Source: Rhizophlyctis rosea
Taxonomy: Eukaryota > Chytridiomycota > Chytridiomycetes > Rhizophlyctidales > Rhizophlyctidaceae
DNA: 64,000 nucleotides
Direction: 5' to 3'
Assembly (NCBI GenBank): GCA_027596075.1
Contig: JADGJC010000047.1
Span: forward strand, 1 to 64,000
Part shown: piece by piece, positions 25,785-54,000 of the stretch
Layout of the letters: each line of letters opens with the position of its first letter
Position numbering within the stretch: the stretch's first letter is position 1
Made by a program: the position numbers and the translations under genes
Notes under the pieces: model-generated
Told to the model about the DNA's origin: nothing
What the model saw: only the letters and a program-made list of their open reading frames with translations
The model's database searches: none

Positions 25785-27578
25785 TTAACATTCCCGCCCC
25801 TGCCACTCAAACACCAACCAACAAGTCTTCGCACGATTCTGGTCCCCGCAACCCTCCCAAAGAGCAGCAAAAATAACCCCTTCCACATAATACTCCCATC
25901 CCCGCCAAACACTCTCCGTATGCACCACCCAAGACCTTTTAACCCTTCCATCCCCAAACACCCCAAACCGCCCATCATCAATAATCCCCAAAAGACTATT
26001 ACACGTCACCCTTACCCGATGCTTCAACATCTTCTGCAACTGGGTCACTTCTCCAGCCGCTTGCCCAACACCCTCCAAACCGCCCTCCATTTCCTCTAAA
26101 ACCGTCCACCACTCGCTCGTGAACTCACCCCCCTTGCAACATCGCATCAAATCCAGTACGTCGCCGATATCGCTGGTGGACTGAGGTGTTGTCTCCAGGT
26201 ACCATGATTGACACCCAACGACATTGTAGAAGTGCTCGGAACCATCATCGCACTCTGCTCGCCAGGCCCGAATACATTGGTGGAAGGCCCCAATTTGCAG
26301 GTCCTCAGGGTGGCTGACTTCCATACCAGATGGTGCGGATCCCAACCTCCTATAAGACTTTCCAATGTTGTCTTTCGTGACGTGTTTAAGAACTTCCCCC
26401 ACCTCCTCCGCAGGATCATTATTCGACGCGTAAGCCCATAAGCCATTCCCAAACGCATCCCGAGCGTTCACATCCGCCCCTGCATCCACCAACTTCCGCA
26501 CCTCTCTCACCCCACCACAGCCAGCCGCCAACATCAAAGGCGTCACCCCATTACAATTCCCCTTCCCAACCAACTCCCTCGGCAACAAGTCAAAGCATTT
26601 GATTGCAAGATCAGTATCCACATGATGAGCATGCATAGCCCACCAATGCATAACTGTATCCCCTTTCGCAAATGACGTTCCCAATTTGACGAGAGGAGAC
26701 GGTTGTGTTGCGGGGAGGAGGATCATTTGCCGGTGGAATGGGTCGGAGGATTGGAGGAATGTACGCAAATGGGTGAACGTGTCTGGTGCCGTTTCATGCA
26801 TATTGCGGTTTTTTGCACGGAGTTTCCAGAGGAAAGCCGAGATGCCGAAGAATGTGGTTGAGAGTTCGTGGAGGATTGGCAGACCAGTTTCTAGTTCTTC
26901 CAGTGTTCGGCATAGGAAGTGAACATAGACTTGCAGGTGAGGCACAGGACAGAAGGTGGTTTGCATTAGGTGGAGGAGGGTACGGAAACGTGCGTCTGTT
27001 GGGCGGGTGCGGGGTGATGTCAGGAATCGGAGGATGGTATCGTGATGGGACTGTGTCCGTGGTAAACCCATCATAGAGTGACAGAGCGGTACAACGGTGG
27101 GTTTGAAAGGCATCGGGCAGGATTTGAGGGCTAGGGAGGAAGGAAGGGAATCTTCCCACCAGTCATGCGTGGGAATGTGGTCACGAATCTCCCGAACGAC
27201 ATTTGTTCGCGGCCACTTCCAGTAGGATAAGCAATTCTCCAAAAGTTCCTGGACGTCACCAAATACGCCGTCGTTGGAGAGTCTGTGGTGGAGCCTTCCG
27301 CTTAGGTCTTTCCAAGTGTCGCAGTTTACGCCGTTGAGGGGGCAGAGTTGAGTGCATGCAATGGTGAAGTCCTGTGGGGAGGGGTAAAAGAAGGGGCGGA
27401 ATAGGCGTCTCCATATGATTGAGGAATCCGCTAGGTGAGTGCAATGTTTGGACAATGAGGAAAGTCGTGCGATTATGGTGAGGGAATTCAGCGAGAGGTT
27501 GTGGGAAAGGAGGTCCAGAAAATGCAGGACGAGGTCGGTGTTTGACAGGAATGTTGTGAGAGAAGCTTCTGGTTGCAT
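25785..27578 (-). CDS. F-box/ankyrin-type protein, 597 aa
   Basis: Single-exon gene from ATG 27578 to a stop at 25785. The N-terminal 65 residues look like an F-box (LVLHFLDLLSHNLSLNSLTI ... IIWRRLFRPFF). One clear ankyrin repeat sits near residues 345-380 (NGVTPLMLAAGCGGVREVRK then LVDAGADVNARD), followed by a half repeat. The C-terminal 200 residues lack known motifs; an acidic segment EEMEGGLEGVG lies near residue 500. Likely an adaptor in ubiquitin ligation or protein binding. Same broad class as the genes at 6456, 37076 and 56928. Confidence 0.75.
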   Translation of the reverse strand: MQPEASLTTFLSNTDLVLHFLDLLSHNLSLNSLTIIARLSSLSKHCTHLADSSIIWRRLFRPFFYPSPQDFTIACTQLCPLNGVNCDTWKDLSGRLHHRLSNDGVFGDVQELLENCLSYWKWPRTNVVREIRDHIPTHDWWEDSLPSSLALKSCPMPFKPTVVPLCHSMMGLPRTQSHHDTILRFLTSPRTRPTDARFRTLLHLMQTTFCPVPHLQVYVHFLCRTLEELETGLPILHELSTTFFGISAFLWKLRAKNRNMHETAPDTFTHLRTFLQSSDPFHRQMILLPATQPSPLVKLGTSFAKGDTVMHWWAMHAHHVDTDLAIKCFDLLPRELVGKGNCNGVTPLMLAAGCGGVREVRKLVDAGADVNARDAFGNGLWAYASNNDPAEEVGEVLKHVTKDNIGKSYRRLGSAPSGMEVSHPEDLQIGAFHQCIRAWRAECDDGSEHFYNVVGCQSWYLETTPQSTSDIGDVLDLMRCCKGGEFTSEWWTVLEEMEGGLEGVGQAAGEVTQLQKMLKHRVRVTCNSLLGIIDDGRFGVFGDGRVKRSWVVHTESVWRGWEYYVEGVIFAALWEGCGDQNRAKTCWLVFEWQGREC

Positions 27579-27938
27579 GGTGAAGGTCTTCCGATAGGGG
27601 CAGACTCTGAACGTTCGACCTGGTGATCAATACTTGTTTTGAAACCAATAAGGGGTGCGAACTCAAAAAAATCCAATGGAAGGAGTGGCAAAGTCAGTCT
27701 GGGCAATGTAACAATGTTGATGGAGAGACAGGGGGTTGAGTCATGTCACTCGCCAAAGCTGTGCCTTTTCGGCCTGATCGCCTGCCGTTTTCCTCCTCCC
27801 TCTCCGATAACATTAGATAATGCAGCAGCAGAAAAAGCGATGCCATATTGCACAACGAGTTTCTATTAGGTTCAATAGGCCCTCTCCCACTGTCTTTATG
27901 TCGCTGTTACTACGCTGTAAAACCTCCCTCAAAACCTC

Positions 27939-31158: not shown

Positions 31159-34100
31159 CTAATTGCGCCATCCCTTGATAAATGTAGCTTGGCCCTTACT
31201 CCCAAACACTACAATGATATCCCGGTCTAATCTAGCTGTTCCTCGGTGCTGAGGAGGAAGCCATCCAACCAAATCACTCCCACTTTGCACCCAGCTTTCC
31301 CCTTCTGCTTGGACTGCACGGCTTTCCTCGAGGTATCGGCGTTTGTAAAATCTCGCCTCTTCCCACTCCACGTCCCTATGGGCAGGTAGTCCCAAATGCA
31401 GCCCTGTTCCTTCATCTCCTCCTGTAACTTTCCCGTTTTTGCTCTGCTTTGCGTTGAGAACGCGATCGATTTCCGGAATCGTCCAACATTTACACTTCCA
31501 TCTCTTCCCATCTGACGATGCTGTGAGGATGGTTGGTACGTCTAAAGCCGAGTAACTCCATGTTTTCTGCCACATCCATGCCGCGTACATCTCATAAAGA
31601 CGCTCCCCAGCTGCAACACATATGACTGGAGCTACATGTCCTTGCAGCGTCGTCACCAGCTTCCCCGTAACTGAATCCCACACTCTCGCCGTCCTGTCCG
31701 CCGACCCCGTAACCACGAAAGGTCTGCTGATCGTCACTGATTCCACGGAATCTTCGTGCCCGTCCAGTGTCAACACTAGTTTCCCACTACCAGCATCCCA
31801 GATTTTCGCCGATTTGTCACTGGATCCTGTTATAATAAGTTCCCCATCTTCACTGACGGCGACCGATGTGACATGACCGTTGTGACCTTCCAGCACTCTC
31901 TGACTCTTTTCGAATGTTCCACTCCCCAAATCCCACACCTTGGCTGCCCAATCACTTGATGCTGTCAGCAAGCGGTTCCCGTCGGAGGTCATGGCTACTG
32001 ATGTGACGCCGCCCCTGTGCCCATCCAGCGTCTTCACAACCTGCCCCGTCCGCAAATCCCATATCCTAGACACCCAATCACGTGCTCCCGTTGCAATGAA
32101 ACTCCCATCATCGCTGATAGCTATAGAATGGACCAAATAGGAATGCCGTAATGTCCGCAGCAGTCCTCCATCGTTCATGTTCCATATTTTGACTGAACCG
32201 TCGTCCGATCCTGTGGCAATGCAACTTCCTCTACTGTTAACAGCCACCGATGTGACATAGTTGCTATGCCCATTCAATGTCATCACAAGTCTCCCATTGT
32301 TGATCTCCCAGACTTTGGCGCTTCCGTCGTGCGATCCGGTCACAGCACGATTTCCAACGCCGCATGTAGCCACCGAAGTGATCTGATCTCTATGTCCTTT
32401 CAGCAACTGCACGATTTCACCACTTTCCATACTCCACACTCTGCCCGTCCAGTCTCCAACTGTCACGATGTGCCTGCCATCGCTGTTGATGGCCACCCCC
32501 ACAACTGAGGTGCCATATCCGTCCACAATAAGAGTCCGCAGTAGCTTTCCAGTGTGCAAATCCCACACCTTCGTTGTCTTGTCGTCCGATCCTGTCACAA
32601 TGCAACTTCCCCCAACAGCTACAGATGTAACAAATCCCTTGTGTCCGTAAAGTGTGCTCACAAGCCGTCCGCTCTCCATATTCCACACTCGCGCCGTTTG
32701 GTCGTCCGAACCTGTCACTATGCGTTTCCCGTCACGGCTGATGGTCACGGCATTTACATGATCGGTGTGCCCTTCCAATGTCTGCAGACAACGGGACCAG
32801 TGGGAATCGAGGCCTTTGATGACAATAGGCAATTGCTGATTTTCGGGTTTTTGGCGGTAGGATATGCTCAGCTGCGTTTGGTCAGGACAGAAAGGTAATG
32901 CCGACCAACGAACATGCGCAGCGCTGAGGGTAATCGGCACCTTGAATTCCCGCAAGAAACGCCAAGCGTCGTATGCCAGTCTTTCCCATTCCTGGAAGAA
33001 CCTGTTAGAAGCTCCATAAAGCGAAATTTCATTCTCCAGGGTCATGCCTGATCTGTTCCATGTTTGTCCATCCATCTTGTGAAAAGGAACAATTTGGGAA
33101 TCACGGCTTCCACCTTTTCTAGGACACTCAAGGCCTCGAACCAGTCAAGCAACTTCGTCGCCAAGAATGTTTGTAGCAAAGGAAAGAGGGAGTCGAGGTC
33201 GGCGTCAGCGCATGTGATATGGTCTATACAGAATTCCGTGGCATATAAGAGGTGACGAGGAAAGTTCACTTGAACTCGTTCTGCCAGATCAGGTATGTCC
33301 GTGTTTCGTTCTTGGCGAGAGATGTTGCACATATTCGGTTGAAGCAGATCATTCAAAGTGTGGAGACATTTTGTCGCAACCATTGCATGTGCGCGTGCAG
33401 GTTCAACTAGTATTTGTGGATCGTCACATTTGGTGGTACTTGTCAAATAATCTGGAATCAAAGTTGATGTCAAGTTGAGGAAATTGTAGCTCAAAATCAT
33501 ATGGACCCTCACCAGTCAATGACTTGTGGCGGACTTTTACCGCCTCATCATTCTTGATGATACCCGTAACCTGGTTTAGAGCAATCTTTACATCGTCATG
33601 AGGCAGCCTCAGAAGATCAGCGATGGCACGTGTGCTTAGCGGTTCCTGACCCACGATTACTGTGCGGACGACCTCCATAATGACGGGATACGAATCAAAT
33701 GCGTTCCGGAGTGTAGCCTTATACAGGAAATTGACGTCGGACGGTAGGTTTTCCAAAAGTCGAAGCATTTCCCTCCCATCCGACGCCCGACTCAGGTACG
33801 ATTCAGCAACTGTCAGCCAAACAAAGACCCCGGCGCTCTTCTCCACCATCGTGTCACGGAGTGAAGCCAACTCTCTCGGTCCCAGTTCGAGATTCAATCC
33901 TTTGAGCATGGCACCCGCTTTGACTTCCAGATCTTGCACGTTGTCGCGTTCTTTAGGATCCAATAGGCGCCATGGTTGAAGGCGTTGAAAGGCATCCGTG
34001 ATATCCTTCTCCATCCGACTCGTCATAAAGATCTTGACGAAAGACGGCAATTTGGCGCATTCCACTGAGAGAACATTCAGTATCTCCTGCCGGTGATCCT

Positions 34101-36261
34101 CCTGCCCACACTCTACCGGAAAGAAAGCATTAGATGTGTGCTACACTATTGAATCATTAGAAGTACTAACCGTCCACAGCATCGACAACAATGACAACGG
34201 TTGAGCTTAAATCAGACACGACATTGAGTGGATCCCGAACAAGAGCGTCAAATTGCTGCGGGATGGGCTTTGTCACTATATCGCCATTTTGCGAGAGGAA
34301 ATTGTCAAGGTAGAGCGCAATCCGGTGGTCCCAATGGACAAGGCCGCACGCAATGGTATGAACCAAGTTCTGTGCAAACAAAAAGAATATAGATGCTTAG
34401 ATATAGTGTTTAGCGGTGGCACAGATCGAAGCCAATAGGAAATACGTCTTGGATATTCACCTTAGCGTCTCTTCGGCTGACATCATCATGTTTGCAAAAG
34501 AACGCGGCACCCAGTTGTAAGTCGCCCTTCAGTCCATCTATCACCATAGCCGCCATCACGGATTTCCCCACTCCTGGATCACCCTTCAACCAGAAGACTC
34601 GAGATGATCTATCATTCAGCCACTCAGATATCTCGTCAAGGAGCCAGCCTCGAGTTCCCTCTTGATGGGCTTGTCGAAGCCGTCTCTGTTCGTCTTCAAA
34701 ATTCAAAGGTCGAAGCGCTGTGTTGATTCGGCGTGTTGCTGCAGTAACTGTTATCGTGTCCACTTCCGACCTTTTAATATTGGTGCTGCGTTCTCTTGAT
34801 GCTCGCGCATGTATTTCCCTGGCATCTCGTGCTATGCTAGTATGCGCAATAGGTAAGCTGAAGGGTGAGATTTCAGTATGCAGGAAGGCAAGACTTACTC
34901 TCGGACATCTTCTGGCCAGCGTTCAACGGCTTGGAGTTTCATGATTGTTTCGATGACACCTCTAATGGTATGCCTCTTTGGACTTTCCGGATGTACGTGG
35001 TGGGTATCTGGGTATTGAGCAAGGGAATTGTCGAAATCCTCAAAAAAGCGCCTAGGGACACTGGTGCAATTCCCGTCCTTAGTCGCGACAGTCTTTCTAT
35101 GTCCCACAAAAACGGGCAGAATGTACGACTCCGATCTATCTAATTGGTCCAATGCAATTTCCCACTGCGAATACAGGCATAACATCACTAAGGCTGCTCA
35201 AACGAGAAGTGTGGATGCATTAGCCACACCTTACCTCTAACAGCAGATTATCTGGGGTTTTGTCCGCATCTCTGATACGCTCTAACGCTTGCAAGGAACA
35301 TAAGAGGATGATCACGCGAGATCTTAGCAACCCTTGAAGGAAACCACGCTGCCACGCTTCACCAAGAACCAAACAATCTCTGCATATAGGATTGGAGCGG
35401 AATTGTCAATGACGGAAGAGACGCATTTACTGCTTTTGCACATTTGTTACTCACTTATCCACAAAACAATGGTGATTGGCAGCCCCTCGTTTCTCTGGTC
35501 GTGATAGCTTCGACCCCAATTCCACAGCAAGGGATGCATCAGCCGACACACGGTAACTGTAGACCCGTCACGGTGATGAAAGCGCCTTTCACATATCAAT
35601 CTGAAAGACAATCATAGCTGTTACCTGACAAAATATTCGTGATTGTCATAATTTTCGCGACATTTCCATCCATGTACAACATCAATAGATGTCACGGGGT
35701 GCAAGTCTTTGTCATCCACATCATCTACAACTGCCCTGCGACTGAGTGCTCGAAATGATGATAATAGGCTTCGAAGGATTTCTTACTCGGGTTTGACTCA
35801 TGGCTATGTGGAACAAGTATATTGGGCTTTGGGGACGACGTTCGCGAAGATGGTGGAGTTGGTATAGGAACTGAAGATTTGTCAAAACAGTTCCAGTTTT
35901 TCCCCATCAGATCAGTCAAAAACTCCAAAACTCAACCCCGCCGAAAGCAAGCTACTTGCCTTCATCTATAAGGACCACCTGAAAGTCCGTCACCCCATCC
36001 TCGATAGTCTCGTGCAAAGCGTCAATTGTGCCAACAAATAGCTGTCTTCCGGCTTCGACAAAGTTGAGCTCAAAATCGACTCCATTTGCAAGGCCCAACC
36101 GGTCGCGGATCTACGCAACATGTAAATAAACAAAAACTAACCTACGCCGACGAGTTGAGATTTTATATAAACACCTTGGCTTTCACCGCGTCAAAGTCAC
36201 CGGCATCAGCGTCGACCCGGACCTCCCGTTCCCCTAGCTTCACATATACTCTTCTGGGCAT
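31159..36261 (-). CDS. NLR-type receptor: Ubl-like header, TIR, NACHT, WD40
   Basis: Exons, in phase through exon 10: 36261-36175, 36110-35960, 35930-35787, 35730-35625, 35556-35455, 35379-35235, 35164-34899, 34836-34461, 34369-34171, 34112-33513, then 33451 onward to 31159. Residues 1-80 look ubiquitin-like (MPRRVYVKLGEREVRVDADA), as in Crinkler-type headers. About 157-330 is a TIR domain: EYFVSYRVSADASLAVEL, CFVDKDCLVLGEAW, SRVIILLC, and DNLLLEWEIAL with the catalytic Glu. NACHT: Walker A GDPGVGKS (about 418), Walker B VVIVVDAVDECG (about 520), sensor FMTSR. Nine clear and one degenerate WD40 repeats follow. One frame break occurs near 33060; the exon 2/3 intron (29 nt, GC-AG) is doubtful. 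Role by analogy: NTP-driven oligomerisation releasing TIR NADase or scaffold activity in immunity or cell death. Confidence 0.8.
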
Positions 36262-37075
36262 CTTTCACCGTGCACAAGCGCAACATTGGGGGACGATATG
36301 GTAAACCAGTTGTCGCCGTCACACGGCTTCAGAGCCTTCCAGGTTACTGTAGGAAGGGTTAGAGGAAGTGAAGATGCTCGCTTCTTTTACGATTTTGCAT
36401 CTTGAGTTGGCCTCTGAGTTGGACCGCCAGAGGCTCAGATCTCTAGACCTCCGAATCTTCTACAACTTGTGTGACAAACTTGACGACTCAGCCCACAAGG
36501 ACGAGAAGGACGAAGGATTTTTTATTTTGACGACAAGGGGCGCAAGCCGTCCTGGAAGTTGAAGATGGAGACGCCGTGCCTGCAACTCATAATTTGGAAG
36601 GAAGGAGTGCTGGTGGTAGCAGTCTACCAGACAGAGCTTCTCATGACAGAAGTTATGAAATCTGTATGGAACAATGAACCAGTCGCTGCTTTACGGACGT
36701 CCACTATCTGGGGCCCGGTGCACGTGATTTTTACTGGTTGATGACTATCCTCACCCTCGCGGTTGTTCTCCCATGTCCTGCCCCATCGACATTGCTCCCT
36801 TTCTCCCACCAACGATTGATTTGAAGGCGCAACCTTACGACTGACCTTGAATGTCAGTTTGTCCAAGCAATATCAAGTCACCTTGCTCAAGAGTCTGCTT
36901 CCGCGCTAATCCAGCATTTTCTGGAGTGGCAGGTACAATTGTCCACCTGCCGGATCTTGCTCAGTTCCCATACTACGCCACTCAGTTGGTTGAATAGACG
37001 CCAAGACCGTAAAGTCTTCTTCTTCTTCCCAGCATCAGTTCTTCGACGTCGCGCGACAGAAACCCTACTTTCACC
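36262..37075. other. spacer with a broken small ORF
   Basis: Plus-strand frames 36368-36562 and 36559-36741 read as one broken peptide: a helix-rich start (LELASELDRQRLRSLDLRIF) then, after a shift at a T6 run near 36519, FDDKGRKPSWKLKMETPCLQ through GPVHVIFTG. It may be a small gene with a homopolymer error. It lies in the divergent 5' region between the NLR and the ankyrin gene. Family unknown. Confidence 0.3.
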
Positions 37076-38983
37076 ATGTCCCTCCAACCCGAGCTTCCAC
37101 CTGAAACCGTCCTCCACATCTGCCGACTATCCTTTGGCCCTTCAGGCAACAATCTACGGAATAGCTGCAAAAAACTCCGAGCACTTATCAAGGCTGATGA
37201 TGTAGCTTGGGGGCATGCCGGTTTCCTAGAGCACACGGTGGGCGTTAGCAAATGTTGGACATGGGCTGTGGAAAAGTGGCACACTGAGGTGCTCCGTGCG
37301 TACATTTTGGACGTGCCAACAGCCTCGTTATCGTTTGCATTGAGGGGTGCCGCTTGGGAAGGGGATACCGATCTCGCCGGCCTCTTGCTGGGGGCCGGTG
37401 CCGTTGTGGATAGCCACGCGCTGGAGCATGCAGCATCAAGGGGGCATATGGACTTAGTGCGAACTTTCTTAGGGACCGGTCTTAGTTTGGACGCAATTGC
37501 TCACGCCATAAGTTGGACAGTGGCAATAGGCGATGCAAGGATGGCGGAACTTCTATTGGCACACTACGACGGAATCACGGAAAACGGGGGTCGGTGGTTA
37601 TCTCGCGCCGCAAAGGAGGGCAATGTTGAATTGGCTAGAATTTTGTTGGCGGCGGGGGCTAATATCCTCCACGATAACGGGTCAATCCTCTGGGAGGCTA
37701 TGGAGAATGGCCATGTCAAAACAGTTACGTTACTGTTAGAGGCGGGGCAGCGTCTGGAGGGAAATGAGCGGCGTGACTACTTGAAGGAAGCGCTAGTGTG
37801 GGCTGTTACGTGGATGGGACTGCCAATTGTTCAGATGCTGTTAGAGTGGGATGTTGATGACCGGGAAGTCTACGATGGTGGACTTCTAGGAGCGATTGCC
37901 TGTATGAGAGTCGGAAATCGTAAAGGCATTGTTGGTGGCAAGGGGAACCCCCAATATGATCGGCGAATATGGGCCATACCATAGTGTATCGGCTTTGGGA
38001 GTTGCTGCAAGTGTAGGTAGTGTGGAGATGGTGCAACTCCTCCTGGACGCTGGGGCGGACATTCACATCAATAAGGACGACGCCCTTGTTAACGGAGCGG
38101 AAGGAGGGCATTCGGAAGTAGTTGCATTCTTGCTCAGGGCAGGAGCAGATATTCACACGCAAGAGGATAGACCATTGCGTGTAGCGGCCACATCAGGGAG
38201 CACCTGCATCGTGCAAGTCCTACTGGCGGCCGGTTCCAATTCACCACCCGCACTCACTCGCGCTTTGGCAGGTGCAGCTGGAAATGACCACGCAAAATCC
38301 ATCAAGGTTTTGGTAGACGCTGGTGCAGACCCTTTCAGTGGGGCTGAACACTACAATTGGGCCAATTCAGCACGTCTCCGCCCGTTCGATGCCATTCAAG
38401 CCCTTTTAGAAGCCGGTGCCTACCCCAATGGAACCGCTTTGGTATCCGTCATGTGTTTCGCTGCAGCCTCCGGAAACCTTCTCATTGTATCCCTCCTCCT
38501 ATCCACCTCGGATAAGGAAGATCCCCACTTCACCTGGGCTATCGACGCGGCGTAGCTGGATGCTTGCCTGCAACGGCAAGCGGACGTCGTTGCGAAGTTT
38601 CTGGAAGTTGGTGGGGCTCGGTACGATGTTGTGGGGCAGAAGTTACAGGAAAAGGTGGATGACGAGGTGTATGACCAAGCGGATAAGATTGGAATAAGCA
38701 GATGTGGGAAGATATGGATTCTATGTACGAGGGGCGGGCGGAAGCTTGGGCTAGAAGGCGGTTCGAAGGGGCGATATTGGTATTGCGGGCGGGTAAAATG
38801 CGGTATAATCGGATTCGGAAGGTTATTTTGGGACGGTTGTGGAACAGGGGGGACTGGGATTGCGATTGTTTTGAGTGTGGGGATTGTATGGATATGGAGG
38901 GTAGGTTTTCGGAAGTAAGTAGCTATGCGGACAGCGGCTCAGAAGACGAGCAGGGACCGGACGGTAATGGTTCCGAAATCTGA
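37076..38983 (+). pseudogene. F-box/ankyrin repeat gene with three frame lesions
   Basis: ATG 37076 starts an F-box-like segment (LPPETVLHICRLSFG) followed by about eight ankyrin units of the type AAKEGNVELARILLAAGANI. The frame shifts near 37915-37925 (continuing as LLVARGTPNMIGEYGPYHS with further ankyrin units to 38550), meets TAG at 38553-38555, continues in the same frame with LDACLQRQADVVAKFLEVGG, then shifts again near 38700 into an Arg-rich, acidic C-terminus ending at 38983. Joined, it would be about 630 aa. Three lesions suggest decay, though sequencing errors could explain the single-base shifts. Confidence 0.65.
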
Positions 38984-39624: not shown

Positions 39625-41187
39625 TCACAACGAGACATAATTACCAACCGATCGCCTCTTCCGCAACCTATGATATCCCTTCTCTTCAACATCTTCCTCA
39701 TTGACAGTCCAGTATGTTCCAGGCGCGAATTCGGGAATTGGCTTGGGGGATGGAAGGATGGATTGCGGTTCGCTTTTGCGGCCCTTGCCAGATGTGCGGG
39801 CGGGGAGGGATTTGCGTTTGGGTCGTTGAGATGCGGATGGGTGATCGCCCTCTGCGGGGCGTTTGCGTTTGGGGAGGGTTGTGGGACTACTTATTGAGAG
39901 GTTTGTGGGACTAGTCTTAGGGAGATTTGTGGCACTAGTCGGTGCGGGAAAGAATCGGCGGGTTGGATAGCGACGTGGGGTTGTAAGATCTTCTACTGTC
40001 CTTGTCCGAGGGGTGATTCTTCGGGAGCTATCTAAAGATGACCCGTCAATGCTCATCTCCAAATCAATGTCATTGGCCCACACGATGTCCTGTCCCAGCC
40101 CGTCTGTCTTATCGATCTCCGATTGTGTGTCTGCTTCTGTAACGTCTACTCCTCCCTCTGGCCTATCTACCTCCTCAACTTCTTCTGGTATGTCTTCATC
40201 CATCTCCTCTACTACTCCCTCCTGTCCTTCCTGTAAGTACTTTCGAAGATATCCCCCCTTCCCGGATTTCTGTTTATAGTATTTCTGCAATTCACACAGG
40301 ACGTGTTCCACATCCAGAGGTCTGAGATTTTCTATATGGAAGTCATCCTGGAGCCGCAGACTTGCTCTACGCGCAAGCTCATCATTAACTTCATCCGCCA
40401 GTGCCACTATCCGATCCCCTGCATCCGCAAACGTCGTATCCGTAATCCTGCCGGTCGCGAGATAGGCCAGACCTTTATGTGCCCCTGGGCCCGGACGCAC
40501 GAAGCCAGCCTCAAATTTGGCCGCTCCATACATCACTGCATCGCAACAGATTTGGTAGGCAAGGAACTCGTGGACGAGGGCGAGGTTAAGGGCCTCGTCG
40601 TAGATGATGCTTTGGGGAGGAACTTTGTGGGGGCTTCTGGAAGGGTAGAGTTCGCCCTGGATCGTTTGGCACGCAAGCCAGTTAGCTTCCATAGCTTGTA
40701 TGAATCTTTGTATACTGTTGGAAGAGGTGAAGGCACGAGTTCGCCAGCGGTCTTTGTCCTTCTCCAGCTGTCGTAGCTTTTGCATCGTGGATTTCAGATT
40801 TGTTATGTAACCAAATTTCTGGCTGGTTGGCCAGTTGGAAAGGTGCCTATGAAACATCACATTCCAGAGGAAGTTTGGATCGTTCTGTGGGGTTTTACCG
40901 TGGAAGAGGGTGATAAGGAATTTGGAGGTCGCGTCGTCTTCGCGTCGGATGCAGCAGAAGCGGTATTCGCGCAGAACGGGGTCTGTTGTCCATGGAGCGG
41001 GTTTGTTTTGGGCGCGTTTAAGCTCGATACGGCGGCGTTCTTCGATGTAGTCTACTAGCACTTTCATCCTGCTTGGCTGGATAGGTTTGCATGGTAGCAT
41101 CAGCTGCTCGCAACTCCGTTGCGTGGTTGGATTGAGTTGGTCTGAACGAGTTTTGGCAACGAACAAGGAAGTTCGGAGAGTTGTCAA
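39625..41187 (-). CDS. HMUDK_hel-domain protein (5-hmdU kinase / thymine hypermodification family helical domain)
   Basis: Single frame of 520 aa; ATG 41187, or the later Met of MKVLVDYIEERRRIEL. Residues 40-290 match the all-helical domain found in phage 5-hydroxymethyl-dU DNA kinases and glutamyl/putrescinyl-thymine pyrophosphorylases, also present in fungi: ERRRIELKRAQNKPAPWTTD, DPVLREYRF, later RPGPGAHKGL and RPLDVEHVLCELQKYY. The C-terminal 220 residues are acidic then basic and disordered (PKRKRPAEGDHPSASQRPKR), suiting a nuclear, DNA-associated protein. A further frame downstream (39409-39624, starting IEGRVGIVTGGAIGGGRYMG) may be a last exon. In the known families the domain acts on modified thymine in DNA; the fungal substrate is not established. 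Confidence 0.8.
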   Translation of the reverse strand: MTTLRTSLFVAKTRSDQLNPTTQRSCEQLMLPCKPIQPSRMKVLVDYIEERRRIELKRAQNKPAPWTTDPVLREYRFCCIRREDDATSKFLITLFHGKTPQNDPNFLWNVMFHRHLSNWPTSQKFGYITNLKSTMQKLRQLEKDKDRWRTRAFTSSNSIQRFIQAMEANWLACQTIQGELYPSRSPHKVPPQSIIYDEALNLALVHEFLAYQICCDAVMYGAAKFEAGFVRPGPGAHKGLAYLATGRITDTTFADAGDRIVALADEVNDELARRASLRLQDDFHIENLRPLDVEHVLCELQKYYKQKSGKGGYLRKYLQEGQEGVVEEMDEDIPEEVEEVDRPEGGVDVTEADTQSEIDKTDGLGQDIVWANDIDLEMSIDGSSLDSSRRITPRTRTVEDLTTPRRYPTRRFFPAPTSATNLPKTSPTNLSISSPTTLPKRKRPAEGDHPSASQRPKRKSLPARTSGKGRKSEPQSILPSPKPIPEFAPGTYWTVNEEDVEEKGYHRLRKRRSVGNYVSL

Positions 41188-42044
41188 AAGCAGGGCTTGT
41201 TCCGTTCACAGGAGGTGCTGGCGTGGCAAGCGCACTTGAGGGCTAACTTTCGGGAAGACTGAGGCTGCCAAAGTGCGGTTGCGGCGGCAAAAGCGGACAA
41301 AAACTGCCGGTGGAGAGGGGGGAGGGAGTTCGAACGGAAGAGGGGGTAGGAAGCAGGTAAGGTTGAAACTCGCCGAAGCTTCAGACTAAGTCAAAGGCAA
41401 GTGGCAGACTTGGCAGGGTGCTGCTGTTGTGAAAATAGTGGGTGAGTAACCAGGTGTAGCAAATAGAGCGGACGAGGCGACTGTGAAGAGCTCACCGTCA
41501 AAAGGAGTGCAAGTGCATACTCCGGGGCCGCGATAGAGTTTGGTGGGGTCGACAACAAACAAGCTTGAAAACCGAAAGAAGTTGGAGGTTGGCAGGTTGG
41601 CGTGGCAGTCGGGCCTGTTGGCCGCGTCCTGGCGATCGGACAGCAAACGAGTACCTCTCCAGTTCCGAGCTGTACCGCCGGGTTTGCTCAACCCAAACAT
41701 TCCAAACTTTGCACCAAAAATTGGTAAGGTTTCATATGTACTGTCATAGGTACACCTTAGTAACAGTTTTGTATACTTATCACCTATTGACGGTGCATAG
41801 TGCTTACTGTGCTTGGCGAATTCCATAACCTTGAAGCTCTCTGTCATGTGAACTACCATCAAGACAATTCCATTTTTACAAACTATTCACCATTCACCGA
41901 ATATCAACAACTTGTAGACCTAACTCTAAGGATAAATACAAGGAATACGAATATTACGAAGTCTATAAACTCCATCATCATTTGCTTGGCACTTCCCCTC
42001 ATGCTTCGCTTAGTTGCAGCTGTTCAAATCGAAAGATGCTCTCA
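41188..42044. other. intergenic region, no gene seen
   Basis: Divergence between the 5' end of the HMUDK_hel gene and the 3' end of the dynein gene. A minus-strand frame at 41386-41862 has no domain and is not called. Confidence 0.5.
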
Positions 42045-45000
42045 TTAGCAATGCCTTGACAGACAAAACTGCAGTAAGAAAACTGCACTTACCACACTCG
42101 CTACACCCCGATTAACCCAGTGTCTAGCCGGCTTATCACTCGGCAAATATATATTCATCACGTAGTTCGTTGAATGTCCCGTTGTACTCAAAGTGCCTCT
42201 TCTCATACTCGTCTTGTAGACTGGACATTCATAACCCGTCTCTTTCGCCTTCGCCAACTCCGGATCGTCTTGGTTGCAGGGAGTGACACGCACGACTGGC
42301 ATTGCATCTGTGAGCTGTTTTAGGTTCTGCTCGCCGAGGACCATGGTTTCGCTGTCCCAGCGTGCGCCCTCGAGGAAAAGACCCCGCACGTAAACTCCGT
42401 CTTCCGGTGGTACGGTTGGGACGGTGGACATGACTTGGAACGACATGGTGAGAAGGTCGATTGGGATGGAGTACTTGCGGGCATAGTTTTGTAGAGTGCC
42501 TGTATATGTGCATGGAGGAAGGGAGTGATGAGAAATCGTACACTGTCTCGCTGTATTGGCAAGATTGGCTTTACCAGTGAGGAAGGATTGTGTGAAATAG
42601 AAACCCGATATCCAGAAGATCGTTGGAATACCAATATCCATCCAGTCTTGAAAGAATTTCAGTCTGGCAATGAAATCGGCTACATATGCTCCCTGTAGAT
42701 GTTGTATGGTCAATATGCCGACGAGGGCAAGCACTACGACGACAAGGTGCACGAGGCATAAGAACTCACCAAAGGCTTTAAACTAGGATAACTCTTGCCC
42801 GCCCACATCTCAGGAATCTTCCCCAAGGTCAAACTGGTCGCAACCTCCTCCAACTCCTTACTCATAACAATCAATCCCTTCAACGCCTTGATCACATTCT
42901 GCAAACTCTCCCTCACAATCTTCAACAACCGATTGAACCGCACTAGCTCCTGCACCAATACCGTGTTCATACTCTCCTCATACTTGACAGGATACTTCTT
43001 CTGTGCTGCCCCGATATCAAAATCGGGAGGGAGAGAACCCAACATGGTACTAGCGATGTCGCCTGTGATCTCTTCATTGGACTTTCCGCCCGCGCCGCCA
43101 CCACCACCTGAACGAGCTTGTGTGGAAATGGCGGATGCAATGAGGAGGTTGGTTTCTGCCAGGTCTTTCGTGATGTCGGCATTTTCGTGCATGCCAAAGA
43201 CTTCTGGATGGGCGGTCAGTGGGAAGGATTTGATGTGGTTAAGGTAGGATTCGTATGATCCTTTGGGTGGGGCATAGTAAGTTCCGGAGGGAGAGAGACG
43301 GTAATCGTCGTCTAGGATCTCGGGTGTGTAGAAAACTGATAGGATGGACATCAGGGCTCGGCGGTCACGGTCGTCTGTTACACGACCGCCGTAGTTGCAT
43401 TCGCCTGCTAGATAGACAAGTGCTTTCCATGGTACTTCATCATATTCGTTCAGGAACTGAGAAAGGAAAGGGTTAAAATGGTAAGACGGAGATGTTTGCG
43501 CTACATAGCACGCCAGTATATATGACATACCTTCTGCAACTGCCGCACACTGATCTTCAAATCACTTTCATTGAACTCATACGGAATGTTCCACCCTAGC
43601 GGACCAAAGTTCCTTCTCTCCTGCACAATAGCGTGGAAGAAACACAACCCAAACAACATCTTCTCCCACTTCGCCTCCGCAGCCTTCTTCACGCCTCTAA
43701 AGAAGCTATCCTCCCCAATTGGCTCACTCGTATAACTCCGAAGAATATTCGCTCTCAAACCAGCAGGCGGTTCATTCGTCATCTTGATGCCATTTTGGAG
43801 AAGGGTGACGGGGAAACGGTCAGATGGGTAGGATGTTAGCCAGAGGCGGAAGTCGGGATGGGTCGTTTCGGGAGTGAGTTCTTCGCAGGTCTTTTCGAGA
43901 GATGGCAGCCAGGATACGGCTAAGTGACAGTTTTGAAGGACAACCCAACTTCCGGATTTAACAGCGGCGCGGATCATGCCGGCGGCCACGGGGCCTTGGC
44001 CTTGACCGAGGGAGATGGTGGAACATTTGTTGCCGGCGAAGCCTTTCTGTTCCGCAAATCGGAGGAGACTGTGAAAAAGAACAGAGACGAGATCAGTTGA
44101 AATAAAGTTGAAAACTTCAAAGCCCAAGACCCCTAAATTCATCATCACTCACCCAGCAGTAGGATCCGACCCAGGACTCAAAATGAAAATTAACGGCGCA
44201 CAATTATTCGAATCTCCATAACTCGCCGCCAAATCAAACGGCGGCGGCTCAATAAACTTCTGCCCCATCCTACTCTTCACAAAGTCCATAATCGCCGGAA
44301 CAAGCTTATCGGGTCTCACCGTCCGCAACACAATCAACTTCTGGAATGCACTCAATCTCTGATCCCACCCCGCCGGCAAAGTCTCCTTCTGCGGCTCAGT
44401 ACTATCATATATCGTCTTCCAAGTCGGCACATTCTCCTGGAACGCCGTCCGAAACCCTTTGAAACTAGGCAACTTATCCAACCGTCCGATCTCGCCCCAA
44501 CTCTTTTCGCTCAACCATTCTGGTGCAGGATTGGGAGGTGGGTTCGGATCCAGTAGAACGCCACCCGTAAGGAGGAACATCCACTCATCAGTGTCGATTT
44601 CGTTCCGTCCGCGCATGAGACCGATGCAGAGGAGGAAGGAGAAGAGAAGTTTGTCCTTTTTGAAGAGGGAGCGACAGACGTTGCAGTAGAGACTGTAAGT
44701 GAAGTAGGAGCGGAGGTTTTCTAGACGGGTTTCGAGGTTATCGGATTTTTCGGATTCGTTGATGGAGGCGAGGAAGAGGTTTATGAACCAGGCTAGGGAG
44801 TATTGGTACATGGGTTCGATCTGCAAGGAGAGAGAAGGATTATTATTATACATACCAATGTGGCTAATCATCATGTAACGGCAGAGTCACAACTGTAATG
44901 GCAACGAAAAGACACTCACATTCGCCAACTCCGCAATAACAAAGAACAAAATCGACGAATGCGTCGCAATAGGCTTATACCCCTGCCGCGTCAAATCAAT

Positions 45001-48000
45001 CTGCTTCTCCGTCTCCTCCGCAACCTTCTGCTTCTGCGCAATATCATCCGACAAAACCTTCGAACTCGTCAACGCGTTGATAGCACTCTCATCTTCCAAC
45101 AAATTGCCCTGACTGCTGCTGAGAATTGCTAGAATCTTATCCTCGATCTCCTTGAGCTGTTTCTTGTTATTCGCAGATGAAACGACGAGACGGTTCTTCT
45201 CTTCTTCAAGTTCCGGTCGTTCTTTCGCTGCGACGATACCGAGGAGTTGGTCTTCGAGTCCTTCGGGGGTGATCATGAAGTTGACTATGGTGACTTTGGT
45301 GGAGATTTCGGGGAGGTAGTGCGGGTTGCGGAGCTTGGTTGTGATGTAAAACCGGAAATCAGGCGAGTATTCAATTACTGCTTCACCGAGACGGATGCAC
45401 ATGACTCCACTCTGTTTGAAAATCTGTTTCGTAAGAAGCGGTTCAAGCACCGAATCAACCTCCTCGTTGATATTTTCTAATAGGACCGGTGTACCAAATT
45501 GGATGGCGTTCTCGAGTTGGCGGACGTAGTCCGAGTCGGAGAGTTTGATTACGGAAAGGCGGTTGGCTTTTTCGAGGTTTTTGATCCATTTGTTGGCTTG
45601 GCCCTGGGGGTCTATGAAAAGGGGCCAGCGACGGGCTTTGGTGGAGATGATGCCGTTGTCGGATGAGAAGAGGTCGTTGGGGAGGCCTGCGAGGTTCCAG
45701 GAACGGAGCTGGATGGGGTCGCCTAGGGTGTTGATGAGGGAGAAGGTTGGGGAACATGGGATTTTGACGGCTACGCAGCGTTGATTCCATTCGGTTAGGA
45801 CTTGTTGGCGGTATGAGGAAGTGAAGGCGCCAAGGTATGCAATGACGGCAGAAGATAGTAGGACGTCGCCGGTCAAGTTGTCGTAGGTGATAGTTAAGGT
45901 CCGTGCTGCTTCACTCCACCGATCCTTCTCACCACCCAACCCACCAATCAACTTCTCGGCACGGTCGAGTTTCTTCCCGCAAAGATCAACCTGCGCCTCC
46001 AGATCGGCCTTCTTAGCAGTCATCGCCTTGAAGTTGTTCTCCAACGCCGTCATCTTATCCTCGACCTCCTTCAATTCAGCACGCTTGGTGTTAAGCTTCT
46101 CCATCTCCACTGCCAACTCTCCCTCAGCCTTAGCCAATGACTCCTTCTTCGGTCCCACCACCTTGGCTACTACCTCGTACTTGTCCAACGCTCGAACCCA
46201 TTTGCAAAGACCTTCGGCGGCACTGGACGAGTTTTTCACAATGTTGGGGTCGAAATCCGGATTGGGTATGTACTTCTTCCTGATCACATCAATCACTTTC
46301 GGGTCGATGTTGTCTTTGTCATACTCCTTTAGACTTTGCAGGAAGTGCGAGTCTCCCAACAGTTTCTGTGCCGGACCCCAGTAATCCTCCACCATCTTCC
46401 CGCTTCCGCCTGGATCCTTGATACGGGCCGGTTTGACTGCCTTCATGACACAGACAGCTTCCATCACCAACTTAACGGCACCAGGAGGGTTCTTCATACT
46501 CTTCACCATCGAGATATCAGATGGCTTCAGTGTGTTCAGAGCGTCCAGAGCTGCTTCTAAAGCTGGCATAGCCTCCGCAAGATCCGCCTCACATTCATCC
46601 TTGATCGCTTTCGCCTCCCCGGCCTTCTTATTAGCTACCTCCTCGTCCACCTTCACAACCGCCCTCTTCTTCTCCACATCAACACTTTCTCGCTGAATGA
46701 CAACCATGATCTGATCCGTCTCTTTCTGTGTTTCCACCAACTTTGGCTGCAAGGCGCTCAATTCCGCTTGCATGGTTCCAACCTGAGAAGCTGCACTTGC
46801 AAGTTGATCGAGACCCGTCACGTACCGATTCTTCAGAGCGGAAACCTCTTTCCGTTTTAGGTCTAATAGCTGCTTATAAGTCTGAATCAGCTCTAGGTAA
46901 CTGGTGGGTGTGACGTAGTTGTATCGTTTGAGCCCTTCGAAGAACTTCTGGGAAAGGAGGCGGGTGCCGGTGTGGAACTCCTTGCACATTGCCACGACTG
47001 CCGGTCGGACCTCAGGAGCTAGCTCCACGTCCTCTAGGAAGCGCTGCGCTACAATTTCTAATGCGTCTTCTGGCCATACTTGGAACCAATCGATAGTACA
47101 ACAGTTCACGAGTGATGGGAACATCCGTAACCGATTCCGGAATGCATCACCAATGGGAGACATGCACAGTACTATGTGAAGATTCTCCTTGCATCGTGCA
47201 ATGAATTGACTGTAGAGGGCGGCGGGGCTGGCGTCGAACTTGGGGTTATCTTTTGCTATCGCGTTTCGTACTTGCTCGCAGACGGCGGCTTTCTCATCAG
47301 AGGGGAAGATGTTTGGAACTTCTCCCGTATTGAGGATGTTGTTGATGTCTTCAAGGAAGGACTCTAGCTGCAATTGCGTGTCACTGAACAAGAAAACTGA
47401 CGGTACACCCTTAGCCCCAGCAGCCGTTAGAATCTTCTTCAGATCTTCCCTCCATTCATTCAAACCGTACGACTTAGATATCTCCACCTGGAACAACTGG
47501 TATTCGGCCATGTAAGCCGCCAGTTTCGTGAGAGATTGTCGTCCACTCCCTCCAACCCCAACTAGCAAAGCATGGCCAGCCGGTTGCTTCAGGATGCGAC
47601 TAATCCTTGAGACATGCTCCACAGCGAATCGGAAAATGACCAAATTCATCGGTGACTTGCTGACTTGGTTATACTCATCTAACCGTCCCTTGATCACATC
47701 CGATACCTTAGCTACGTCCACCACTTCATCGTAGTACTTCACCGCCACATCCGGCTGTGTGTAATCCCCAAACATCAATGACCGCATATCGTCATCTTCA
47801 ACCTTTCCGTCCCGATTGAAGTCCAGATGTCCAAAAACTTCCTCAAACCGCACACCGAAGCTCCGTGCGACCAAGTCTTTCACTGTTGTAAAGAACCATG
47901 CCCGGTCCGTATCATCCACCAGCCGATCATAAAATACACGATATGCCTCGTGCGTCCACAACCGTACCATCTTCGGGACTTCCTGGAAACGTTCGGGTGC

Positions 48001-51000
48001 AGCAAGGAGCAGACCCTGCACCACACGAGCTACATCACGCAGGTTAAACAGGTAGTGCGATTTTGCGGGCATGGGAAGGAGGTTTGCAATGGCAGAGGTG
48101 TAGATTTCCAGTGTTGCGGAAATGAGTTGATTCTTGATACCTAGGAGGGCAGGTTGAAAGTTGTTGCTGGTCAGGTGCCATTCGACAATGGTGCCGAAGA
48201 TGTGCTTCATAGTGGGTTCGTCGAATGTGGTGATGCCTACAGTGTTGAAATGGCGCAGGAAGCGAGACGTGACAGGATTTCTTCCACCGCCTGGCGGTCC
48301 CATGGCTGCCACAAATTGGATGTCCACCAATTGCATGATTGATGTATCTTTTAGATCATAGATTTGACCGTGGTCCATCCATTGCCGAAGGAGTTCGATG
48401 GGTGGCTGCGCACCGTACTTTTCGCGGGCGGGCATGTTCAAGTCATCAACAAAGATGACAGCCTTCTTGCCGTGGGGCGGACCGAAGACGCCACGACGTC
48501 GCTTGTCCAACTTGCTCAAGATGATATCTTGTGTCTGATTGGCACTCGTTTGTGCTGAGAAGTTGATAAATACAGGAGTGTATACGGCAGAAGGAAGTCC
48601 CGATAGGAGTTTGTTGTTGATGTAGACTGATTTACCCGTACCCGTTGGACCGACGAACAAGACCTGCTTGTTGTGGGTGATGTAGAGCTCCAACAAGTGA
48701 CCATACCGAGCCGTATCTATGGTGGGAACCGTGATCGAGTTGAATTTCGCTTTTGCCGGAATGTCAAACCTCCCTATTGTCTCGGTCCATAACTTCCAAG
48801 TCCCGCCAAACTTCCGTTCCTTCTCAAACACATAATCGTAAACCATCCCCGCTCCCGGTATCGGCTTATCAATCTTGACGCCCTTCGGTATTGGATGCTC
48901 GTTCTCAGAGCCGTCCACCAACCGCCTGAAGTACTGATCAAACTTCTTTCTCGACTCCCCATCGATTGTGCCTCCCAAAGACCAAACCGCTGAAAACAAA
49001 AAGATGCAGTGCAGCCAAAGCGTCTGGATGTTGGGCGGCAACATCTCTTCCCCAGCCTTCTTTTCTCCCGAGAACTCATCCAACTGACATGAGAGAAGCG
49101 TCATGAGCGAAACTGCTAAGTTGATCCCGCTAGTGGCTACAATCTCCCGACACTCATGCCTCAAGAAGTCTAAACATGGCGGAACAACCCAATCAAACAA
49201 GATCTCCAACAACTGCCGTTGCTCCGGCCCAACTCCCGCCGGCAATGCCGCGATCCACGATTGCATCAGAGGCCGCCATCCCAACGCATCCGGTTCCATG
49301 TAGATCATACCACACCGAGATACCGTGGCCGGCGAAGCTACCGCCAGATCCGCAACCTCAAATTGAATACTCATGGTGGAAGTCATCGCCATGATTTCAC
49401 CACTGGTAAGGCACAGCTTTTTGTTATCATCCAGCACGGTGTTCATATTCTCAATCCAAATTGCATCTACCGGCCCGTCGAAAATGACCCACTTGCGTTC
49501 CGTCGTACCCTGCTGCGCGAAGGAACGGAAGGTATTGGCCAGCACTCCGTCCGTCCATTCGTGTGTCACCGCATCGAATTGCCCGTACAGCTGACCCATG
49601 GTGATCGACTTCGGATTCAGCACCCTATATTCTACTTTCTTCTCATTCAACCCCTTCTCTGCCATATCCGACAATGCGGCCGCCAACACCCGATATGCCG
49701 TCGTCTTCCCTGACCAAGGCTGCCCCACAAGCATGTACCCATGCCGAATACACATCATCTCATACGTCTGGATGATCTTCTCTAACGCATTATCCACCGG
49801 CTGCAGATTCATCCGCGCCATGTTCTCTGTGATGGCCGATAGCAAGTGGCGGTAATCGGGCGTAGGCAACACAACTTTCGGGAACAAGTCGGCGGAAATG
49901 GCTTTGAAAAGCGGGATGTCCTGGGTTAGGAATTTTGCCAAGTTTACATCGTTGATGGAACGAAGCATGATGATGTGCTCGTTCTCGCCGGGGTATTTGA
50001 GTTTTAGGTTGCCGGCGGCGGTTAATACGGCTTTCACGGCACGCATACCGTAGTCGTAATGATCTTGGGAGGAGAGTTGTTCGGAGCAGAGTTTGTAGGT
50101 TGCGACGATTTTGCGGGCGAGTGTGCGGGCTTCGACGAAACCGAAAGAATAGAGGGAGATCTCGGAAATGAGAGCGTAATCGGGAACCTTTATAACTGGG
50201 TATTAGTCTGTGATCGGACATGGCCCACGGTGTTTTTTCATGTACTCACCATCATAGCCACTGGTCTGAACAGCGCTTTCAGATTGTCCGGCAACTCAGA
50301 CCGCCCCGCATATCCAGGGTTCATTGTAATGAAAGCCGAACATCCCCTATTCAACGAAATTGTCGTCCCCTCAAAGACAAACTTATCCACCTTAGCAACC
50401 ACCGCCCGCTGGATTGTCAAGATCTGCTGTGCAACTACACTAAGCACTTCCAAATCAATTCGATTGAATTCATCAAAACAAGCCCAAGCACCAGAAGACG
50501 CCAGTCCTTTGAAGAACTTCCCCATAGCAATGTAATCCAACCCATCAGAGCAGTTAAAAACGACACAGGCTTTGGCAATAGCCTTTGCCAAATCCTTCAC
50601 AGACTCGGTCTTCCCCGTCCCTGCTGGTCCCTCCGGCGCACCACCAAGATTCAAATCCAACGCCCCAATCAACGTCCGGTAACATCGATCCGTCAAATGC
50701 GTGATAACTAATCTAGGACTGTTCCCCAAGTATTCATACCCATATTTGATCGTGGCATTAATCATCCGAACTTGTACATCCTCCTGTTCCCAATAATACC
50801 GCAACTGCGACAGCCAGCCGAAATCGCTCTCTTGAGTCACGTTTTGCTTCTCCAAGTCGCCGACAACATCACGGGCGTGGACGTCGATGACGACGAGGGC
50901 GGAGAGGGTCATGCGTGCCATGGGGCTTAGGTCACCTCGGACTAGGGCGACAATATCCTCCAGTTGACGACTACAGACTTCCCGGTAGCTCCTTAATCCC

Positions 51001-54000
51001 GCGACGCCACCCTGTCTGATTGCTTCCGTAACTTCCTTGGTCCAGAAAATCTGACTGACACAGATGACGACCTGCCCCGGCCACTCGAGCACCCATTTGT
51101 TGCGAGGCGTGTCGGTGTAAGCTTTGAGTCCGTTAACGACCTGTTGGTGTATTGATGCTTGCATGACTTTTTCTACTTGGAGGAGCCACTTCTCGACGGC
51201 ACCCTTTGCCTGAGCAGGTTCAATGACTTCTTTCAGCTTCACACGTTCATTTTCAGAGGAGCACATGGCGATGATTCGGGTGTTGTCCTGGAAGGTTAGA
51301 CTCGCAATACCCTCAAAGCACTTCTTGAGATGTGGTTGGACACGCAATGGATCTTTGGTCTCCGCAAGGATTTCGAGAAGCTCGTCGTTGGAGAGGAAGA
51401 AGAATCGCGGGAAGAAGAGACGTTTCTTCTCGAGGTATTCATTAAGACCTTTTTGAATGTCTTCTAGCAAAACGTTGCTTTCGTTAAGGCGGTTGAGCAT
51501 GCCGGGAATATTGGCTACGGAGAGGATTTTGGGATTGTCGTGGGTGGAAGACATGATCTCGCGCCAAGTTTTGTCGACGATACGGAATTTTTTGCCTTCG
51601 GTTGGCATGGCAGCTGTGATGTCCTCGCTGGTGAAGATGGGTTCGAGGTATAGCCAGGTTGCTTGGACCTTTAACCAGGCATCGATGATGTCCTGGATTG
51701 TTACAAGTGTCGTCTCCCATGTTTTGACTTCCTCCTCAATAGGCTTCACAAAAGGCGAACCCCTCATCGTCTGCACCTTGACGATCTGGTCATCCAGCAA
51801 AGCCTGCACCTCCTCCAAAGTCGATAAGATCCTCGTTCCGGTATCCTTATACTCGATACAGTTGAATACAAGCGGCTCCCACTCCTCCTTCATCTTACTC
51901 AACGTCTTCTGCAACGAGAACTCCTTACTGGCGGCATCACTGATCGATTCAAACTGCTGGAGGTACTGTCCGAGGTTCAAATCAAGAATCTTAGTGAGAG
52001 AAGTCGTCTCATCCGGATAAATAGACTGCCCAACAATCTTCGCCATAGCCTCCCAATGCCGCTCCCTCAACCCCGGATTCCTCAAAATATTAATCAACGG
52101 CTGATGTGCCTTAAACTTCTCCAACTTATTCTTCACGCTCTCCGCCACTTTCCTCGGCACCGGCTGTTCTACAAACGTCTTGGTCAACTTGAACATCACC
52201 CGGAACATATTGCCCGTCGCCTCATCCACCTCCTCGGCGTGCAAATCCCGGAATGCCCCATTCATCCATTTGGAGTACTCCGTCTGGAACGTCGAGGCAG
52301 TTTCCCAAAGCTTTTTGTACGGATCGAGAAGCTCGAGTGTTTGGCTGTACTTTCCGAATTGGGTTTTTTCCCATTCGAGGAGTTCTTCTTCGACGTTGAT
52401 GCGGGAGACTGTTTCGGAGAGTTCGGAGAGTTTTTGTTCGAGTTTCCGGATTTTTTTGATGTATTCGGGGAGTTCGGACATGATGCCAAAGTCCTGTTAT
52501 GCAGGAGAAAGAATGATGTCAATTGCTTGATCAGTATTGTCGTTGACGCACGCAATGCCCCCACATGAGGTGCGAGCTCCCAATAACCAGCAACACTCCC
52601 ACAAACATTCTACCCACCTGAAACTTCTGCACCCCCTCAAAGCACTCCTCCAACTCCTCATTAGTCTTCTCAATCTTCCCCTTCAAATCCTCCTGCGCTT
52701 TCGCCTTCTTCTGCAACATCCTCTTCTTGCTCAACTCGAAAATAGGCATAATCCTCCCAGGCCACGTGAACGTCACCCCATTCAACTTGATATCCTCCTC
52801 CGACAAAAACGCATACTGCAACAAGAAATCCAACCGCTTCTTGCCGCGGTTGATTTCGTCTTTTAGGGCCACGACGTCTTTGGTTTTGGCGGTTTCGACG
52901 TAGTTCATGAGTTCGACGAGTTCTTCGGTGTCGGCGGGGGCTTTCATGGCGCGGGCGGAGATTTTTTCGTAGGATTCTATTATGCTGTGGGGGTTTTGGG
53001 GGGGTTGAGGGACGGTTGGAAATGTTTAGCTCAATAGATCAAGATTCCTGGTGTTATCGTACTAACCTCAAGTTGGTCTTTCTGTTCATATCAGCAATTT
53101 GATCCACCAGTCGCTGAACCAACTGATTGGCCTTCGCAATCAACTCCGTTTTCAGTGCATCACATTCCAGGTAGATCATACTGAAACGGACGATGGAGGG
53201 CGAAGCGTTGATCTCCTCAATCAATTTCATGAGTTTTTTTATCTCCTACAAACACGGTTGAAAGAATTTATCATGTCAGAACACGAAACGCCCAGTCGAA
53301 TCTCCGGCGAACCGCGAAGACAGCAACCCTATCTCCCAACCCCACCTCCCAACCTCAACAGACAGAAACTCACCGCCTCATAATCCTCCAAATCATGCTT
53401 CTCCCTCAAAAAATCCTCAATCCTCTTCTCAGCCTTATGCGTCAAAAGACTCTTATACTTATCATAACTCATCAAATGCTTCTGCGGCGCCACCGTATTC
53501 TTCGCCACTATCCCCCTAACATACCTCCCCTCCCCAATCCTATCATCATCCAACCCCATCGCATTCAGGTAAAGTCCCTCTCCACTGAGAGAGGTGAAGA
53601 GTTTTGTTTCCACGCGGGGAATATCATGAACCGCATGGACCATTTCTTCTAGCACAGACATAATAACGGTTTCCAAGTCCTGAAGAGGGGGGTCGAATCG
53701 GATCTGTGCGCCGGATATGACGAGTTTAACTAAGAAGAGGGATGTTTCGGACGTTGCGGATGCGAAGCGGGAGAAGAAGGATTCGAAATCTGTGAGGGAG
53801 GAGGCGGTGAGGTGGTAGAGGTGGTTTGACATGAGGGCGGAGACGGATTTGAAGAAGGAGTCTAAGCGGCGAAAACCGGTGTCTGGGTCTAGGCAGGAGG
53901 TTGCGATGGAGTACCAGGTGTCTTTTGTGGTGAAGAATTGGGTGGAGACCGTTGGGATCCATCTGTGGGTGTGGTATGGTTTAGTTAGAAATTGTAAATG

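Follow-up and report, generated by a model that had tools for sequence, protein, structure and literature searches.

The sequence analysed here, hereafter the window, is a 64,000-nucleotide stretch of contig JADGJC010000047.1 (positions 1 to 64,000) from Rhizophlyctis rosea, a soil chytrid of the phylum Chytridiomycota, which agrees with the original prediction that the DNA comes from a zoosporic fungus. On the minus strand, the splicing of 12 exons yields one open frame of 1450 amino acids (aa), running from an ATG at 36261 to a stop codon at 31159 (31159..36261), with no stop codon inside its 1450 codons. Its 11 introns are 56-91 bp long, nine of them with GT-AG borders and two (introns 2 and 11) with GC-AG borders; the original prediction had joined eleven exons, a count now corrected to 12, and was otherwise right in substance. 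The encoded protein consists of a ubiquitin-like header (aa 1-79, exons 1-2, 35961..36261), a variable linker (aa 80-125, 35678..35960), a TIR domain (aa 126-314, 34836..35677), an NPHP3_N-type NACHT NTPase (aa 374-538, 34015..34658), about ten WD40-like repeats (aa 905-1346, 31474..32799), and a short C-terminal tail. The gene appears intact and is predicted to encode a receptor-like protein of the STAND/NOD-like receptor (NLR) type, which is probably cytosolic.

The exon structure was compared with that of related genes in the same genome by aligning the window protein, with splicing allowed, to six paralog loci (C36, C633, C279, C208, C609, and C566). This alignment located a header at all of them except C566, and the intron of each of these five headers is at phase 0, like that of the window gene. 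The four TIR introns lie at phases 2, 2, 0, and 2 in all six loci, again as in the window. Linker introns vary between the loci, and regularity is lower in NACHT and WD40 than in the header and TIR. Within the window gene, a 24-bp intron at 35624-35601 was rejected in favor of a 68-bp alternative that restores the motif FVSYR and matches P0001, the protein independently predicted by NCBI for the C36 paralog, in which the residues across this splice are of the same kind. P0001 shares 54% identity with the window protein over 83% of the query and has the same TIR-NACHT-WD40 chain. Because the residues at the FVSYR splice recur in P0001 and the paralogs share the phases of the header and TIR introns, the gene model is not a product of chance, and the 12-exon open frame together with the shared phases makes a single gene, as originally proposed, the most likely arrangement. 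NCBI protein homology searches, which take only candidates of limited length, did not return the window gene's own protein; those made with the TIR region (two proteins) and with a query of header, TIR, and the start of NACHT (three proteins) added little.

The TIR domain is matched by Pfam TIR_2 with an E-value of 2.1e-7 (31.9 bits against a cut-off of 28). It had originally been placed at 35235-35730, but the family alignment shows that the domain runs on to about 34836. A profile (A5) of ten TIRs (those of the window gene, five paralogs, P0006, P0007, P0009, and P0029) retrieved 23 PDB sequences at E ≤ 1. SARM1 or TIR-1 accounts for 19 of them, the best at 3.4e-6, and the remaining four (E 0.066-0.49) comprise three labelled as TIR proteins or TcpB and one labelled only as uncharacterised; none of the 23 carries a TLR or MyD88 name. 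In the hidden Markov model (HMM) alignment, Glu225 (codon at 35235..35237), the last Glu of LLLE, falls on the catalytic Glu of SARM1 (E642); Glu225 and Glu227 are each invariant in all ten aligned TIRs. A TIR with a catalytic-Glu motif, as expected of an NAD+-cleaving TIR and as the original prediction had described, is therefore supported by the TIR_2 score over its cut-off, by SARM1 ranking first in PDB, and by the alignment of Glu225. SARM1 is an NAD+ hydrolase, and its match to the window family favors the idea that this TIR could act through NAD+ loss or regulated death. Other searches were negative: PADLOC found no match in the TIR-NACHT piece, none of seven NCBIfam matches on P0001 and P0007 exceeded its curated cut-off, and, as to a prokaryotic origin, a single pattern scan of a genome contig collection with the TIR alignment gave 46 matches with none confirmed, which is a weak negative.

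Downstream of the TIR, the spliced protein matches Pfam NPHP3_N (E 1.2e-32) and NACHT (E 6.9e-7, 29.7 bits against a cut-off of 26.7), and both Walker motifs are intact, with GDPGVGKS as Walker A (aa 399-406, 34560..34583) and VVIVVDAVDE as Walker B (aa 497-506, 34111..34198, interrupted by intron 9). An HKSL motif after NACHT (aa 701-704, 33517..33528) is presumably winged-helix-like. The Pfam WD40 match (E 4.2e-79) comprises eight significant stretches, and ten repeats starting at aa 909 were counted by eye, the tenth being degenerate. The NACHT NTPase and the WD40 repeats first read from the DNA are both recovered by profile search of the spliced protein, which combines the NTPase and the C-terminal superstructure-forming repeats that characterize NLR/STAND proteins. 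The C-terminal tail (GWLPPQHRG...FIKGW, aa 1416-1449, 31165..31266) contains a motif, GWLP..RG...F..GW, of which a similar form can be seen by eye towards the C-terminal ends of both P0001 and P0006.

Searched by itself, the header of the window gene has no Pfam match at E ≤ 1. However, a profile built from eight paralogous headers (alignment A3) finds ubiquitin in PDB with a best single-domain E-value of 1.1e-4 and many other single-domain ubiquitin chains at about 3e-4 to 2e-3, the match spanning approximately the first 40 positions (polyubiquitin chains were not counted, since their E-values add up several repeats). This search returned 291 sequences at E ≤ 1, and the best 60 of the 291 are ubiquitin or its engineered variants. 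A six-member header profile gave 8.7e-4, whereas a reversed header profile gave four PDB matches (best 0.02), none of which is ubiquitin. The N-terminus of P0006 was included in alignment A1 and left out of A2 and A3, as it aligned poorly, and the first header exon of C279 is absent in A2 and was added in A3. When the eight headers were searched singly in Pfam, all matches were weak: PB1 in three headers (best 0.0034), the FERM F1 lobe in one (4.9e-4), and two unrelated families, DUF2110_N (0.018) and BNR (0.063), in one each, with none for the window header. The beta-grasp fold is common to PB1, FERM F1, and ubiquitin. PB1 was set aside as an alternative to ubiquitin because the eight-header profile prefers the latter. 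The header is thus ubiquitin-like by sequence profile and is assigned to no particular subtype.

The original prediction had described the header as ubiquitin-like or Crinkler-type. The first description holds by the eight-header profile, while the second is rejected, as the Crinkler family (PF20147) was matched in none of the Pfam scans, either by the window header at E ≤ 1 or by the header members and proteins at E ≤ 10 (a setting at which HMMER filters drop most matches above 0.1). A Crinkler search of the R. rosea genome also found no match, with its positive control absent. Nor is any claim built on the PB1-like look, by eye, of stretches that precede the TIR of P0028 (Physocladia) and of P0006, since Pfam shows no such domain there; the header profile did not find a header before the TIR of P0028 (score -3.5), and P0006 is not among its best 14 matches. 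A search of the R. rosea genome for a SAM header gave 46 matches, none of which extends into the SAM segment of the query.

Judged by shared domains and introns, the window receptor is one member of a TIR-NACHT-WD40 paralog family. As the genome searches score only the best candidates, all locus counts are lower bounds. The R. rosea genome contains at least 46 TIR loci and at least 28 NPHP3_N loci, and 25 of these 28 are preceded on their own strand by a TIR no more than 3 kb away. At no fewer than 18 of the 25, a WD40 propeller match follows 5 kb or less downstream. Conversely, 21 of the 46 TIR loci lack an NPHP3_N match within 4.5 kb. HET matches number 34, none of them at an NPHP3_N locus; three contigs (C103, C301, and C410) carry both, separated by at least 16 kb. 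The scanned pieces of the window gene themselves contain no HET match and thus no N-terminal HET domain as in the HNWD family.

Headers are found at a smaller set of loci. The header scan covered about 1.5 kb upstream of 37 of the 46 TIR loci, so that a header lying further away would be missed, and scored eight loci above the null (maximum 25.3 in 172 trials). Six of the eight (scores 153-188) had themselves contributed to the profile, and the independent detections are therefore only C75 (44) and C173 (50), whose headers are diverged and both retain the header intron at the same position. By eye, the C75 header precedes a second kind of TIR. A NACHT protein of R. rosea, P0008, whose contig most likely corresponds to C173, is annotated with WW rather than WD40 domains. 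In addition, another R. rosea protein predicted by NCBI (P0002, locus tag HK097, presumably from another assembly) joins the header exon to TIR and NACHT, with some exons skipped, and its header is recognized at an independent E-value of 3.1e-5 against 0.22 for the best shuffled control.

SARM1 is an ARM-SAM-SAM-TIR protein. Among TIRs with a solved structure, those of SARM1 and TIR-1 are nearest by profile, and the catalytic Glu of SARM1 aligns with Glu225, but SARM1 has neither NACHT nor WD40, both of which are present in the window receptor. Related architectures occur in other chytrids. P0007 of Chytridium lagenaria matches SAM (5.3e-8) and, after it, TIR_2 (1.2e-7) within the first 321 aa, with NPHP3_N and propeller families following, giving SAM-TIR-NACHT-WD40 in one predicted protein; it carries the SAM and TIR pairing of SARM1 on an NLR. 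P0009 of Cladochytrium replicatum, an NCBI prediction, has TIR_2, NPHP3_N, and WD40, and P0029 carries a TIR of the window family together with a kinase match. In Physocladia obscura P0028, a CAP-Gly domain and a TIR of the window family occur in one predicted protein.

TIR-NLRs in Chytridiomycota are already published, and HET-NACHT-WD40 is their counterpart in Dikarya. The presence of TIR on NLRs of Chytridiomycota is stated in the available part of PMC9815663, which thus shares with our receptor the phylum and the TIR, while a header before the TIR and a family of the size seen in R. rosea are absent from that part of the account. The same paper describes fungal NLRs that begin with Crinkler or SAM, and what the window receptor shares with them is an N-terminal domain of the ubiquitin clan; unlike the Crinkler-type N-termini, the window header has no Pfam Crinkler match and is followed by a TIR. 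The HNWD proteins of Podospora anserina (HET-E/D/R) similarly combine an N-terminal TIR-related domain, NACHT, and C-terminal WD40 repeats, with recognition by WD40 (PMC12881547, as far as its available text goes). Instead of their HET domain, the window receptor has a TIR_2 domain closest to SARM1, plus the ubiquitin-like header, and, unlike in HNWD, its WD40 repeats are not near-identical to one another by eye. Among the titles and abstracts found in searches of the openly available literature, no paper describes an NLR in which a ubiquitin-like header precedes a TIR. Two things are unexpected here: that a chytrid has so large a TIR-NLR family, and that header and TIR are paired.

We consider it fairly probable that the protein functions as a STAND receptor in which WD40 senses, NACHT oligomerises, a SARM1-like TIR acts on NAD+, and the header serves as an interaction module. 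The WD40 fan would sense a non-self or modified-self ligand, and ADP/ATP exchange on NACHT would then lead to oligomerisation. The clustered TIRs may build an active site at Glu225 that hydrolyzes NAD+ or produces an ADP-ribose-type or nucleotide signal, so that the attacked thallus would stop growing or undergo regulated death. The header, on its linker, might recruit a partner, bridge receptors, or restrain the resting TIR; its role as a protein-interaction module is the least certain step of this proposal.

Several observations speak against such a receptor or limit the case for it. TIR_2 is the sole Pfam TIR model that matches the window gene, and with a modest score; PF01582, the other Pfam TIR model, finds nothing in the R. 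rosea genome, and a single-sequence PDB search with the window TIR region finds no TIR, so that a profile was needed to recognize it. Some TIRs act as scaffolds, and although NADase activity requires an invariant Glu, such a residue does not suffice for it. Among the paralogs, Walker A of C633 (L061) reads GVEKS rather than GVGKS, its NTPase being probably impaired, and the alignment of C279 stops after the TIR, so that some family members may be dead. In favor of the receptor, comparison of the proportions of synonymous (pS 0.67-0.89) and nonsynonymous (pN 0.16-0.44) differences in header and TIR (against five paralogs) and in NACHT (against four, as C279 offers too few codons) shows purifying selection at the sequence level on all three, but synonymous sites are mostly saturated, which makes the ratio unreliable and the test coarse. 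The linker is fast-evolving by the same comparison with the five paralogs (aa identity 0.24-0.59, pN 0.23-0.55).

Instead of acting on NAD+, the TIR could be a non-enzymatic adaptor that recruits, by homotypic contact, other TIR or HET proteins to execute the response. Possible partners exist in the TIR loci without a nearby NPHP3_N and in the HET matches described above, and the header itself suggests a role in assembly; since the closest solved TIRs are those of the NAD+ hydrolase SARM1, with no TLR- or MyD88-named chain among the PDB matches, and the Glu column is invariant, we regard an adaptor as unlikely. It is more improbable still that the window gene has recently decayed or was never expressed: decayed-looking members (C279 and C633) do occur in the family, but the window copy has an uninterrupted frame, intact Walker motifs and Glu, and low pN against high pS. 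That the exon model merged two adjacent genes, a header and a TIR-NACHT-WD40, could be argued from P0001 beginning after the header and from the differing linker introns, but is very improbable given the same header-linker-TIR order and intron phases at six loci (the window and five paralogs) and the joining of the header exon to TIR and NACHT in P0002, even with its skipped exons.

Other genes in the window include, at 39628-41205 (-), a 526-aa open frame that matches Pfam HMUDK_hel (5-hydroxymethyldeoxyuridine DNA kinase helical domain, E 4.3e-33), a family named for enzymes of hypermodified DNA and found here in a fungal genome. A dynein heavy chain gene at 44890-52496 (-), in which 50241-52496 matches DHC_N2 and AAA_6 and a long frame at 44890-50202 adjoins, fits a flagellated fungus. 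Ankyrin-repeat frames are present at 37013-38552 (+), 56916-57869 (+), and 25788-27626 (-), and one of these adjoins the receptor gene on the opposite strand.

Returning to the proposed STAND receptor, a broader and rather doubtful possibility is that the ubiquitin-like header serves the TIR receptors of zoosporic fungi as a module dedicated to signalling or assembly, as SAM does in SARM1 and P0007, and that R. rosea retains an expanded TIR-NLR system with interchangeable headers, representing early fungal immunity before HET replaced TIR in Dikarya. In the available text of a 2014 survey, no NLRs were recorded in chytrids (PMC4986451), and in that of a 2025 survey the low end of the range is one NLR, for species of Chytridiomycota and Mucoromycota (PMC12258605). 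The NPHP3_N loci of this one chytrid, nearly all with an upstream TIR, contrast with a branch thought to be nearly free of NLRs. With such a large TIR-NLR set in a single species, the ancestry of TIR-based NAD+ signalling in fungal NLRs becomes testable, as does the role of a ubiquitin-like domain in front of the TIR.

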